Source of the DNA: a virus
Reading direction: 5' to 3' (one strand)
Length of the DNA stretch: 26,488 nt
IMG/VR virus record: IMGVR_UViG_3300042924_000392
Coordinates: 1-26,488 of that record
Shown: positions 14,793-19,083 of the stretch, piece by piece
How positions within the stretch are numbered: position 1 is the first letter of the stretch
How the letters are laid out: each line of letters begins with the position of its first letter
Translations under genes and position numbers: made by a program
The notes under the pieces: generated by a model
The model's database searches: none
The model's input: only the letters and a program-made list of their open reading frames with translations
Told to the model about the DNA's origin: nothing

Positions 14793-15713
14793 ATGAACAA
14801 GATTCAATTTGGTGATTGCAGAGAAACAATGCGTGAATGGGCTGCACAAGGAATCAAAGCTCAAACTTGCGTGACTAGCCCACCTTACTACGGACTGCGT
14901 GACTACGGGCATGAGGGGCAGATAGGGTTAGAAGAAACGCCAGAGGAATACATCAAGGCAATGGTCGAAGTGTTTCGCTGTGTGTGGAATGTGCTGGAAG
15001 ATGATGGGACGCTATGGCTAAACATTGGGGACAGCTATTGTGGAACTGGTAGCAAGGGTGATTGGGTAGACCCTAAGAATCCTAATGGTCGTAATGGTCA
15101 AGCAGTCAGCAAGACTCAAAAAATTGCAGGGTACAAATCCAAAGACCTTATCGGCATCCCTTGGATGATGGCGTTTGCTCTTCGTGCCGATGGCTGGTAT
15201 CTACGTCAGGACATCATTTGGCATAAGCCAAACCCCATGCCTGAGTCAGTGCAAGACCGTTGCACTAAGTCGCATGAGTACATTTTTCTATTAAGCAAGT
15301 CGCAGAAGTATTACTACGATGCTGATGCGATAAAAGAGCAGTCAACATCCAAAAGCGAAGGCATTAGATTTGGCGGCAACAAGTACGGGGATGATGATGA
15401 CCCTAAATTTGCCACAAAATCAGGAAACGTAAGCAAAGAATACGACAAAGCAAACAAGCGCAGCGTCTGGACGGTGACTACCAAGCCTTACGCTGGCGCA
15501 CACTTTGCCGTATTCCCTTCTGACCTTATCGAACCCTGCATCTTGGCTGGCGCACCAGTGGGCGGCATTGTCCTTGATCCATTTATGGGCAGCGGGACAA
15601 CAGCGCAGGTGGCGCAAAACCTTGGTCGCCAGTATCTTGGCTGCGAATTAAACCCTGAATACAAAACCCTGCAAGACAACCGTTTAGCGCAGCAATCTTT
15701 GATATTGGAATAA
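14793..15713 (+). CDS. Beta-class DNA methyltransferase, probable N4-cytosine type
   Basis: This 306-aa protein has the catalytic motif TSPPY at residues 28-32 and the AdoMet motif DPFMGSG at 262-268. The order catalytic then AdoMet-binding places it in the beta class. T/S-PP-Y is typical of N4-cytosine enzymes, whereas DPPY marks adenine enzymes; that is why m4C is preferred, without certainty. The variable target-recognition region is between about 95 and 250. No restriction endonuclease is adjacent, so it is an orphan enzyme, likely protecting phage DNA from host restriction or marking it for replication or packaging. The gene follows a terminator, looks more AT-rich than its neighbours and has only a weak ribosome site, all consistent with later insertion. 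Confidence 0.9.
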   Translation: MNKIQFGDCRETMREWAAQGIKAQTCVTSPPYYGLRDYGHEGQIGLEETPEEYIKAMVEVFRCVWNVLEDDGTLWLNIGDSYCGTGSKGDWVDPKNPNGRNGQAVSKTQKIAGYKSKDLIGIPWMMAFALRADGWYLRQDIIWHKPNPMPESVQDRCTKSHEYIFLLSKSQKYYYDADAIKEQSTSKSEGIRFGGNKYGDDDDPKFATKSGNVSKEYDKANKRSVWTVTTKPYAGAHFAVFPSDLIEPCILAGAPVGGIVLDPFMGSGTTAQVAQNLGRQYLGCELNPEYKTLQDNRLAQQSLILE

Positions 15714-15715
15714 CT

Positions 15716-17779
15716 ATGCAAGCCGAACAAATAGCGCAGGCACTAGGCAACGCAAAGCAAGCAAACGGATCCTGGCTGGCATCTTGCCCAGTCCAATCAC
15801 ACGGTAAGGGCAACGGGGACAAGAACCCAAGCCTATCCATCACGGAGACTCAGGACGGGAAGTACCTGTTCCACTGCCACGGCGGGTGCGATCAGCAGGA
15901 CGTGTTCAACGCAATCAAGGACAGGGGTCTGTTGCCGGAACTACCCAAACGCGAGGAGATATTCAGCAGCCTAGCAACTCTTGCTCCGCAGCCCATGACC
16001 TTGGAGCAGGAGTGGGAGTACATGGACGAGGACAGGAACACCCTGTTCATCAAGCAGAGGTACAAGACAAACACAGAGAAGGGCAAAGACTATCGCCTGG
16101 TCAGGGTTGATGCACTCGGCAGGCGGCACTCGCGGCTTGGGGATGTAAGGATTGTCCCTTACCGATTCCCCGAACTCTTGGACGCAAAGACAGCAGGAAG
16201 AGCCATCTACCTGGTCGAAGGCGAGAAGGCAGCGGACGCGCTGGTGTCCATTGGGGCCATAGCCACAACGTCACACGCTGGGGCTGGGCATTGGCCTGCT
16301 GAGATAACGCAGTACTTCGCAGGGGCGAACGTGGTGGTGGTTCCCGACAACGACAAGGCGGGGCAGGAGTACGCGAAGAAGGTAATCAAGAACCTACTGC
16401 CGGTGGCAAAGTCTGTGAGGTACTTGGACTTGGACCTGCCGTTCCCTGGCGATGATGCCTTCGAGTGGGTCAAGATGGGAGGCACTAGGGCTGAACTTGC
16501 TGCACTCGCAAAGAACCTACCAGCCATCACGGAAACGGATACCGCAACGAACAGCGAACAGTACGACTCGCACAGCGAAAATACATCACAGGATGACTAC
16601 GACTCCAACGCACCTATGCACGAGGAGTCAACCAAGGCCAAGCCTTTGTTCCTCAACATCGAGTCTTGGGACACCATTCAGGACGAGCCAGTGGAGTGGC
16701 TGATAGAGAAGGTCATACCTAAGAAGTCCTTTGTCGCGCTGTACGGGCCGCCAGGCAGTTACAAGTCCTTTATTGCCTTGGACATTGCCGAGGCGGTGGC
16801 GACGGGCAGGACGTGGATGGGTAACGAGATCAGGACACCAGGCGCGGTGCTGTACATCTGCGGAGAGGGACACGGCGGTATCGGGGCGCGTATCAGAGCC
16901 TGCAAGATACACAACAACACTCAGCAGGGCGCGGAAATCTACGTCATCAGACACCAACTCAACCTGCGGTCAAGTGAGGAGGACTTCAACCTATTGATGC
17001 TGTCCATCCAGCAACTCATCAACGAGACGGGCGTGGAGTTTAGCCTGCTGCAAATAGATACCTTAGCCAGAGCCTTCGGCGGCGGCAACGAGAACGACTC
17101 CCAGGACATGGGCGCGTTCATCACCAACATCGGACGGGTACAGAGGATGTTGGACTGCACCATCATGATCCTCCACCACTCAGGCAAGGATGCCACAAGA
17201 GGACTGCGCGGACACTCTTCGCTGCTTGGAGCCGTGGACACGCAATTGGAACTGCTGAAGATGGAAGGCGGTAAACGCGACGGGATTGCGGGGTCAGGAC
17301 TGCTCACAATTAGCAAGCAAAAGGACGGCGCGGACAACATCAAGATCGGATTTGAGATGGTTGAGGTGCAGTTATCAGCGTCCAGTTTGGGCCTAGAACC
17401 TGTCATCAGCCTTGCCGTTAACCCTTCGGATGAGGCAACGAGGGTCATGGCAGACACGGAAAAGAAGGAGAAAAAGCCTCCTTTGATGCGGGATAAGGGC
17501 GGCGATCAGAAGGTTTGTATTGACTCTCTGCACAAGGCAATCAAGGAATTTGGGGAGATGCGGGACCTTGACGGTAAGAGAAACAAGGCCGTAAAGATCG
17601 ATTATTGGAAGGAAAAGTTTAAGGAAGTGTGGGGATATGAGAAAACTGGCAAGCAGATTTCCAACAAATTCAGCTTCCTGATGCGTCAGTTTGTAGCAAG
17701 AAACAAGGTTGTTGTGTTCAAGGATTACGTTTGGGCGGTATTTGAGGACGAATCTGAGTTTGGTGGTGATGATGAGTGA
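15716..17779 (+). CDS. Primase-helicase fusion (Zn finger, TOPRIM, RecA-type ATPase)
   Basis: This 687-aa protein begins two bases after the methyltransferase stop. Domains in order: a CHC2-like zinc finger (C24, H29, C54, C58 in SCPVQSHG...FHCHGGC); a TOPRIM fold with E168 in LVEGEK and D211/D213 in VVPDNDKAG; an acidic linker at about 275-310; a RepA/AAA_25-type ATPase with Walker A GPPGSYKS (344-351), Walker B LLQID (D448) and the sensor-like ILHHSGKD (H487, H488); and a C-terminal winged-helix-like part near 600-680. It should both prime and unwind DNA at the fork, as T7 gp4 does, though the ATPase is of RepA type rather than DnaB type. The iteron array begins three bases after its stop. 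Confidence 0.88.
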   Translation: MQAEQIAQALGNAKQANGSWLASCPVQSHGKGNGDKNPSLSITETQDGKYLFHCHGGCDQQDVFNAIKDRGLLPELPKREEIFSSLATLAPQPMTLEQEWEYMDEDRNTLFIKQRYKTNTEKGKDYRLVRVDALGRRHSRLGDVRIVPYRFPELLDAKTAGRAIYLVEGEKAADALVSIGAIATTSHAGAGHWPAEITQYFAGANVVVVPDNDKAGQEYAKKVIKNLLPVAKSVRYLDLDLPFPGDDAFEWVKMGGTRAELAALAKNLPAITETDTATNSEQYDSHSENTSQDDYDSNAPMHEESTKAKPLFLNIESWDTIQDEPVEWLIEKVIPKKSFVALYGPPGSYKSFIALDIAEAVATGRTWMGNEIRTPGAVLYICGEGHGGIGARIRACKIHNNTQQGAEIYVIRHQLNLRSSEEDFNLLMLSIQQLINETGVEFSLLQIDTLARAFGGGNENDSQDMGAFITNIGRVQRMLDCTIMILHHSGKDATRGLRGHSSLLGAVDTQLELLKMEGGKRDGIAGSGLLTISKQKDGADNIKIGFEMVEVQLSASSLGLEPVISLAVNPSDEATRVMADTEKKEKKPPLMRDKGGDQKVCIDSLHKAIKEFGEMRDLDGKRNKAVKIDYWKEKFKEVWGYEKTGKQISNKFSFLMRQFVARNKVVVFKDYVWAVFEDESEFGGDDE

Positions 17780-17781
17780 AA

Positions 17782-17850
17782 GTAAACAAATGGTAAACAA
17801 ATGGTAAACAAATGGTGCGTCCATTTGTTGGTGGTAAATGTAAACAAATG
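17782..17850. repeat. Iteron array: GTAAACAAATG, three in tandem plus one
   Basis: GTAAACAAATG occurs at 17782-17792, 17793-17803 and 17804-17814 with no spacers, and again at 17840-17850. An inverted copy (CATTTGTTTAC) lies at 17879-17889 and a partial inverted copy (CCATTTGTT) at 17821-17829. The third copy and the partial inverse form a perfect nine-base hairpin (AACAAATGG / CCATTTGTT) around TGCGT. The 11-bp period places every copy on nearly the same face of the helix, as in iteron-type replication origins. Position directly behind the primase-helicase gene supports an origin, while a repressor-binding array for the next gene is the alternative. Confidence 0.85.
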
Positions 17851-17894
17851 GTGGCAAATCCCTTAAGGGATGCCCATCCATTTGTTTACATTTA
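17835..17894. repeat. 60-bp nested inverted repeat (possible cruciform or origin core)
   Basis: TAAATGTAAACAAATGG (17835-17851) and its exact complement (17878-17894) form 17-bp perfect arms. Inside lies a second perfect palindrome, ATCCCTTAAGGGAT (17858-17871), partly extended by GGC/GCC. The arms contain the fourth direct and the inverted iteron. The whole can extrude as a cruciform or fold as RNA just before the gene at 17928. It lacks a T-run, so a terminator role is less likely than an initiator-binding or origin role. Confidence 0.85.
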
Positions 17895-17927
17895 TGAGGA
17901 CAGCGTAAGAAACTAGTAAGGATTGAT

Positions 17928-18581
17928 ATGGTGACTAAAAAACGTGCAGTAGTAGTAAAGGTTGAGCAGCCAAGTTTTCCAACAGACCCGTTCAAGGTTA
18001 AGTTGAACTCGTTGCTGTTGTCGATTAGCAATCGGAACAAAGACCACACTGCGGTGTGGGGTACTGATCGTTTGATTAACTTGGTGGATGCGGAGTTGCG
18101 GACTAAGTTTTGGAATCAGATGGAGCGGGTCTGGTTGGCTCAAGAGAATCGGGACGAGGAAAGGTTGGAGAAGGCGGTCAAGGGAATGATTGCGGGTTAC
18201 GACGCTTTGGAACGGTACGCGGTTGCGAACGGGATCAACCCGATGCCTGACATTGCGGCGATTGAGCATGAGATGGCTGACGGTTCGGTGATGGTCATTG
18301 TCAAGACGAAGGCTGACGCGTTGCTGTACCAGCAGTTCCGTCCAGAGGTACAAGGACGGCACATCTGGAACATGGAGGAGATCGAGACGATGATGGCCGG
18401 TGCGGTGATGCGAGAGGTCATCAAGATCAAGCAGTTGGACGCTGGAGCCACGATGGTGAAGGTGGGCGGTGACAGCGGGTTCGATGACATGGAGAGTGAC
18501 TTGGATTTCAGCAAACCGTCAACGCTGGCAAAGAAGTTCAACACGGAACTGGCTGAGGCTGGCAGGAATGCCTCAATTTAA
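17928..18581 (+). CDS. Uncharacterised protein downstream of the iterons
   Basis: This 217-aa protein has AAGGA five bases before the ATG. The start is basic (MVTKKRAVVVKVEQ), followed by PTDPFKVKLNSLLLSISNRN and a helical middle (LVDAELRTKFWNQMERVWLA, RLEKAVKGMIAGYDALERYA). After that comes a possible alpha/beta part (ADGSVMVIVKTKADALLYQQ) and an acidic, charged tail. I do not recognise the family. It lies right after the repeats and before the terminase genes. It could bind the array as an initiator or autoregulator, or belong to packaging; neither is shown by a motif. Confidence 0.65.
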   Translation: MVTKKRAVVVKVEQPSFPTDPFKVKLNSLLLSISNRNKDHTAVWGTDRLINLVDAELRTKFWNQMERVWLAQENRDEERLEKAVKGMIAGYDALERYAVANGINPMPDIAAIEHEMADGSVMVIVKTKADALLYQQFRPEVQGRHIWNMEEIETMMAGAVMREVIKIKQLDAGATMVKVGGDSGFDDMESDLDFSKPSTLAKKFNTELAEAGRNASI

Positions 18582-18648
18582 CGAGAAAATGGGTAGGTTG
18601 ATAGGTTGGGTGCTTGGATAGACTAAAACGCTTAGAAAGGGCTTAGAA

Positions 18649-19083
18649 ATGGCTGGTAGACCGAAACGTAAGGAGGACTTGATTAAATTGGATCAAATTC
18701 CGCAGGAACAGATCATCGTGATGCTGGAGGAGGGCAAGTCGATTACGCGGGTATGTATGGCGTTAGGCGTGGGTCGGACGGCTATGAATGTGTGGTTAAG
18801 CAAGCCAGAGAACGTAGAATTGGTCTCGCGTGCGCGTGTGAGGGCGGCTGATCTGATGGTCTCCGATGCGCTGGACATCGCGGACTCAGCGTCCATCGAG
18901 GAGGTCAACCTGGCCAAACTACGCATCCAAACGCGCCACTGGACGGCTGAGAGGTGGAATGCGCCTGCTTACGCGCAGCAGAAGGGTCAGCAGGTCAGCA
19001 TCAACATTCAGGGTATGCGCATGGACGCACTGCGACACGTCGAGGTGCTAGAGGACTTATCCACACCCAAATTGTCCACTTAG
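18649..19083 (+). CDS. Terminase small subunit
   Basis: This 144-aa protein opens MAGRPKRKEDLIKL, followed by a helix-turn-helix at about 31-52 (SITRVCMALGVGRTAMNVWL) and ARVRAADLMVSDALDIADSA. The segment AKLRIQTRHWTAERWNAPAY, ending in QQKGQQVSINI, is typical of Sf6-type small terminases, in which the N-terminal HTH binds DNA and the C-terminal strands form the ring. It recognises the viral packaging site and feeds the large subunit encoded 241 bp downstream. AAAGGG lies seven bases upstream of the ATG, within a tandem GCTTAGAAA repeat. The last codons contain a consensus DnaA box (TTATCCACA, 19057-19065). Confidence 0.82.
   Translation: MAGRPKRKEDLIKLDQIPQEQIIVMLEEGKSITRVCMALGVGRTAMNVWLSKPENVELVSRARVRAADLMVSDALDIADSASIEEVNLAKLRIQTRHWTAERWNAPAYAQQKGQQVSINIQGMRMDALRHVEVLEDLSTPKLST

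Follow-up and report, generated by a model that had tools for sequence, protein, structure and literature searches.

Few environmental phages have a replication origin that has been identified. Directly behind the primase-helicase gene of a viral record of 26,488 bases (IMG/VR IMGVR_UViG_3300042924_000392; this whole stretch is hereafter the window) lies a compact array of short repeats, which raises the question of whether the phage begins replication there and, if so, which of its proteins would recognize the repeats.

The repeat array and its setting

An earlier note on this DNA had described tandem and inverted iterons, long perfect arms and a palindrome at 17782-17894, all of which were recovered on the sequence (Table 1). 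The first repeat starts two bases past the TGA of the primase-helicase gene (17777-17779), and a G follows each of the three tandem copies of GTAAACAAATG; in total, GTAAACAAATG(G) is present at the site five times in exact form and once more as a partial inverted copy. The latter, CCATTTGTT, pairs with 17843-17851 to form a 9-bp hairpin. The outer arms of the large inverted repeat (17835-17851 and 17878-17894) match without a mismatch for 17 bp; its tip carries a loop, TTAA, together with a bulge of two bases, AA, in the 5' arm. The central palindrome contains a CCCTWWAGGG-type core that is common to many relatives. Examination of all 150-bp segments of the record showed that only those over the array contained an 11-mer at least three times, and when the 148-bp intergenic region was shuffled 2000 times with its dinucleotide composition preserved, five copies never arose and four arose once. 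These results confirmed the repeats and placed them well outside what chance would produce. No further exact copies of the iteron occurred elsewhere in the 26.5 kb, and no second array was found in the window, the remaining matches with one or two mismatches being at chance level. The 65 bases from 17832 to 17896, folded as single-stranded DNA, reached -20.4 kcal/mol (z -6.8 relative to shuffled sequences), and both arms of the fold contained iterons. Neither a terminator nor a sigma70-type promoter was found in the array region.

Table 1. Features of the array and of the genes beside it (window coordinates).
Feature	Position	Strand	Remarks
Primase-helicase gene	15716..17779	+	Pfam AAA_25 (3e-38); Toprim_2 below cut-off; PHROG DNA primase/helicase
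Predicted iteron-binding winged-helix domain	17483..17776 (codons 590-687)	+	AlphaFold2 model and co-variation
Predicted recognition helix	17648-17698 (~residues 645-661)	+	AlphaFold2 model
Three tandem iterons, GTAAACAAATG	17782..17815	+	Copies at 17782, 17793 and 17804; 11-bp period, gapless
Partial inverted iteron, CCATTTGTT	17821..17829	-	
Large inverted repeat, 60 bp	17835..17894	.	Candidate origin melting/priming centre
Fourth direct iteron, GTAAACAAATGG	17840..17851	+	Left base of large hairpin
Central palindrome, ATCCCTTAAGGGAT	17858..17871	.	Perfect over 14 bp; hairpin tip
Full inverted iteron	17878..17889	-	Right base of large hairpin
217-aa protein gene	17928..18581	+	Usually next after the array

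The array belongs to a replication block that encodes, in order, a RuvC-like resolvase, an exonuclease, a 187-aa protein, a DNA methyltransferase and the primase-helicase, and that continues past the array with the 217-aa protein; terminase small and large subunits, an SU10-type portal and a scaffold follow. The primase-helicase consists of a weakly recognizable Zn/Toprim-like N-terminal primase, an AAA_25 (RepA/RecA-fold) helicase and a predicted C-terminal winged helix. By sequence, the only solved relative found for the helicase domain was RepA of RSF1010 (1g8y), a weak match (E 0.004) over residues 324-495. No separate genes for a RepC iteron-binding protein or a RepB' primase were recognized beside the array. 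As in iteron origins, tandem short direct repeats that are specific to one replicon lie beside a replication gene.

A GC-skew minimum, which the earlier note expected near 17.8 kb, was absent at the array, also in assemblies with end overlaps. In small phages whose genes lie mostly on one strand, a clear skew switch is often lacking. A strong G excess (skew 0.29-0.34) extended from 17501 to 19000, over the array and the 217-aa gene, and a local rise was also seen in the relatives examined. The N6/N4 DNA methyltransferase gene (14793-15713), located between the 187-aa gene and the primase-helicase gene, is missing in nearly all relatives and present in two distant ones; the methyltransferase was considered as a partner and rejected, since most relatives lack its gene.

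Conservation of the array and change of the iteron in close relatives

Searches at the DNA level returned no relatives among isolated phages. Protein searches identified ~100 loci with the same gene order and an array in the same place, and an array was present in every one of ~60 distinct intergenic regions, down to ~50% primase identity. These regions have a common architecture, in which direct repeats are accompanied by inverted copies and iterons form the base of a large hairpin (the DNA folds of L007 and L016 were left out, as the left arm lay outside the folded stretch). The iteron itself varies from phage to phage, copies inside one phage agreeing with each other, and includes GTAAACAAATGG, CCTACAAATGG, TCAACGAATGG, GGACAAATGG, GAAAAATGG, ACGGAATGG, GCCAAATGG, TAGCCGACTT, TAGGCAACTT and others, while the central core CAAATCCCTTWAGGGATG is constant in the window's clade whichever iteron surrounds it. 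Loss of the repeats from relatives that keep the flanking genes, which the earlier note had set as the outcome that would count against an origin, was thus not observed; the exact repeat differs, but an array is always present. In three arrays (L006, L026 and L029) the variants CCTACAAATGG and GTAAACAAATGG occur together, as though one iteron type were giving way to another. Two different cassettes of primase-helicase, array and 217-aa gene (L037 and L038) occur near the two ends of the 41-kb contig IMGVR_UViG_3300028025_001978, which could be a chimeric assembly, a duplication or two related phages.

Considering that pac and cos sites often adjoin the gene for the terminase small subunit, and that this gene starts 755 bp past the array, the repeats might instead be a packaging recognition site for that subunit. 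However, eight relatives in which the window's terminase small subunit and portal were not found retain the array, unchanged in place and form, and the large subunit is just 31-33% identical in four of these eight. Conversely, small subunits 99-100% identical to that of the window accompany different iterons (e.g., in G001 and G005), and contigs pass through the array rather than ending there. Terminase modules are therefore swapped while the array stays, so that the array does not belong with its terminase, and we consider a packaging site extremely unlikely. The small HTH protein encoded at 18649, which the earlier note had named as one to be checked for binding to the array, is a terminase small subunit and belongs to this replaced module.

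The kept place and architecture, the association with the replication module and the co-variation of iteron and protein domain described below support an iteron-type origin. Accepting these comparisons of sequence as a guide, we regard it as likely that the phage starts its replication at the array and that the primase-helicase encoded just upstream reads it.

A candidate reader of the iterons

Distances between iterons were compared with protein distances along the primase-helicase and the 217-aa protein in two clades. The last ~90 residues of the primase-helicase tracked the iteron closely (r 0.87 for the window's clade, 0.74 for the second; 0 of 2000 permutations), and this co-variation began sharply near residue 590. 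For the remainder of the enzyme r was 0.14 and 0.27, and for the 217-aa protein it was 0.00 and 0.21, the first 60 residues of the latter likewise showing no tracking. These results suggest that the tail of the primase-helicase recognizes the repeats.

The earlier note had named the 217-aa protein as a possible initiator, in which case this protein would bind the iterons and the primase-helicase would be recruited afterwards. Although its gene directly follows the array in the relatives identified, the 217-aa protein hardly changes between phages whose iterons differ (99% identity), it does not follow iteron distance (see above), and its model is a helical bundle without an HTH; no family was recognized for it. 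The protein is thus not supported as initiator and does not appear to determine iteron specificity, which makes such a role very improbable. Comparative evidence supports the origin that the earlier note had put forward as a candidate, but not the initiator that it had suggested.

Nearness alone does not explain the tracking by the C-terminal segment, because the 217-aa gene borders the array on its other side. Between type A, which is that of the window, and type B, the segment is changed at most third codon positions too, so that alleles of C-terminal domain plus array appear to have been exchanged as a block. Some pairs of domain and iteron come from phages that are ~95% identical elsewhere in the enzyme. 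Since domain and array are mostly adjacent, some of the co-variation among close relatives stems from the two being exchanged together as a linked unit.

The segment is predicted to form a winged helix. AlphaFold2 modelled it with the topology a1-b-b-a2-a3-b-b at moderate confidence (pLDDT ~76-89 in the fold; mean 71.5), and structure comparison showed that the winged helices of ORC1, CRP and Cdc6 resemble the modelled domain (Z ~8.8-9.1). The domain of P4 alpha was not among the structure matches listed, which excludes nothing. Many of the differences between types are located on the predicted recognition helix.

In our best reading, it is the primase-helicase that would bind the origin, through its own C-terminal domain, and not the 217-aa protein. 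Winged-helix domains of several primase-helicase subunits would occupy the iterons to the left and right of the palindrome, and binding in opposite orientations would melt the palindrome or extrude the hairpin. The single strand exposed in this way could then receive a RepA-type hexameric motor, perhaps with a ring at either side, and no separate loader would be needed. Synthesis of the first primer would fall to the primase part, perhaps at the bulged hairpin, and a polymerase, probably that of the host, would extend this primer. Of these steps, priming at the hairpin has the least support; it is suggested by the conserved one-sided bulge and loop and by analogy with RSF1010.

Parts of such a scheme occur in known systems. 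The helicase of P4 alpha belongs to SF3. The motor of the window's enzyme, in contrast, is AAA_25/RepA-like and not of the SF3 type that characterizes the P4 alpha family, and the window's array, again unlike that of P4, lies directly 3' of the gene and is centred on a bulged hairpin. In P4 alpha, as in the window (where the winged helix is predicted), primase, helicase and C-terminal winged helix are joined in one polypeptide, which in P4 is reported to bind the origin repeats through the winged helix and then to unwind and prime (PMC4234260). SaPI Rep and SCCmec Cch2 are initiator helicases that are reported to bind, through their C-terminal domain, iterons lying just past their own gene, and self-loading has been proposed for them (PMC7581432). 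The window likewise has iterons directly downstream of a helicase gene, and its predicted C-terminal winged helix would be in keeping with the self-loading helicases represented by P4 alpha and SaPI Rep; however, the staphylococcal islands carry DUF927 or D5-type helicases, whereas those considered here are RepA-type helicases of proteobacterial and environmental phages. The IncQ plasmid RSF1010 has a RepA helicase, iterons and the hairpin priming sites ssiA and ssiB (PMC4234260), and the window resembles it in a RepA-type helicase (the weak 1g8y match and AAA_25), iterons and hairpins. In RSF1010, recognition, unwinding and priming are divided among the separate proteins RepC, RepA and RepB', whereas in the window one polypeptide would do all three. 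Finally, pRN1 of Sulfolobus (ORF904) shares with the window a C-terminal winged helix, predicted in our case, and an origin stem-loop 3' of the replication gene, but it has no iterons and uses an SF3 helicase and an archaeo-eukaryotic primase (PMC4234260).

RepA-type helicases of distant phages and probable prophages

A search of bacterial genomes with the single primase-helicase protein returned no relatives, while a search with an alignment returned 80 loci with RepA-type helicases, mostly proteobacterial, which are probably prophages. In the 64 loci scanned, 11.5% of segments at the helicase stop contained a repeated 8-mer (at least four copies) vs 0.47% elsewhere, a 25-fold enrichment, and the CCCTWWAGGG-type core occurred 0.67 times per kb at the helicase stop vs 0.014 elsewhere (48-fold). 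Array and core were also present in named phages, including Rhizobium 16-3, BcepGomr, Idiomarinaceae 1N2-2, Salicola CGphi29 and MW202867; four other phages examined that have RepA-type helicases (Caulobacter GB2A, Vibrio 1.210.O, Gordonia Trine and Microcystis Mae-JY30) had no array. Cultured roseophages show the same gene order, with iteron ACTACAAA in CRP-811/-823 and GTATAAAA in CRP-821/-831, and their arrays have AAACCCTTTAGGGTTT at the centre with the same two-base bulge and the same four-base loop as the window. The paper on these roseophages makes no mention of repeats or iterons. The window's 187-aa protein showed no similarity to the ssDNA-binding protein encoded at the same position in roseophages. 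Pairwise similarity of the 217-aa protein to its roseophage counterpart is weak (E 0.085), and the link between them rests on the GenBank phage MW202711 as intermediate, which encodes a homologous helicase and a probable 217-aa homologue.

In a distant set of 53 RepA-type helicases, taken from bacterial genomes as well as phages, the C-terminal domain tracked the iteron when the helicase core was controlled for (partial r 0.40; 0 of 2000 permutations), and the core, with the domain controlled, gave 0.06. MW202711 has its array 1.5 kb away from the primase-helicase gene, and yet the GGGACA iteron there matches the type of C-terminal domain that the phage encodes. The distant set and MW202711 weaken the objection from linkage but do not remove it. 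Strong co-variation, in the two clades and in the distant set, marks the C-terminal domain as a candidate determinant of iteron specificity.

An array placed directly upstream of the 217-aa gene might serve mainly as an operator, through which the C-terminal domain or another regulator would control the downstream gene, and it may do so in addition to being an origin. Iteron-bound initiators of plasmids often autoregulate, and in MW202711 the array stays with the probable 217-aa homologue and not with the primase gene. Against this, the gene that follows the array differs in distant relatives (VRR-NUC in 16-3, NTP-PPase in 1N2-2, and others), whose arrays nevertheless remain beside the helicase gene; operators do not typically contain a large conserved bulged hairpin; and the region lacks a recognizable sigma70-type promoter. 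We therefore consider a mainly regulatory array unlikely, and return to the array as an origin.

It appears to us evenly balanced whether proteobacterial phages and prophages with RepA-fold helicases share a single large class of self-recognizing origins that has not been described before, with a private iteron in each phage, a swappable winged-helix tail and a common bulged CCCTWWAGGG-type hairpin for melting or priming. Included in that same balanced reading are three families of tail and iteron, namely FSRWLxKL with AAGTGNGN, FxRAxxxL with GGGACA, and ERAxxAIxGLV with CGGGAA. No description of such an origin class was found in open-access papers. If the origin reading holds, the origins of many phages with RepA-type helicases could be found from sequence, as iterons around a bulged hairpin behind the helicase gene, and another helicase motor, that of the RepA/RecA fold, would have become an origin-reading initiator beside the SF3 (P4) and SaPI types. 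In a single class of this kind, the pairing of tail and iteron would come close to a readable recognition code that sorts phages into replication-incompatibility groups. The natural series of paired domains and iterons makes protein-DNA recognition and replication exclusivity directly testable, and the cultured members Rhizobium 16-3, roseophages CRP-811/-821 and BcepGomr allow such tests.

The N-terminal primase part of the enzyme has also been exchanged. It is Zn/Toprim-like in the window's clades (window 15716-17779) and of unrelated sequence, with weak matches to DNA primases, in roseophages and MW202711 (L164:1005-3239, L161:3987-6284), where the helicase, the C-terminal domain and the array are kept.
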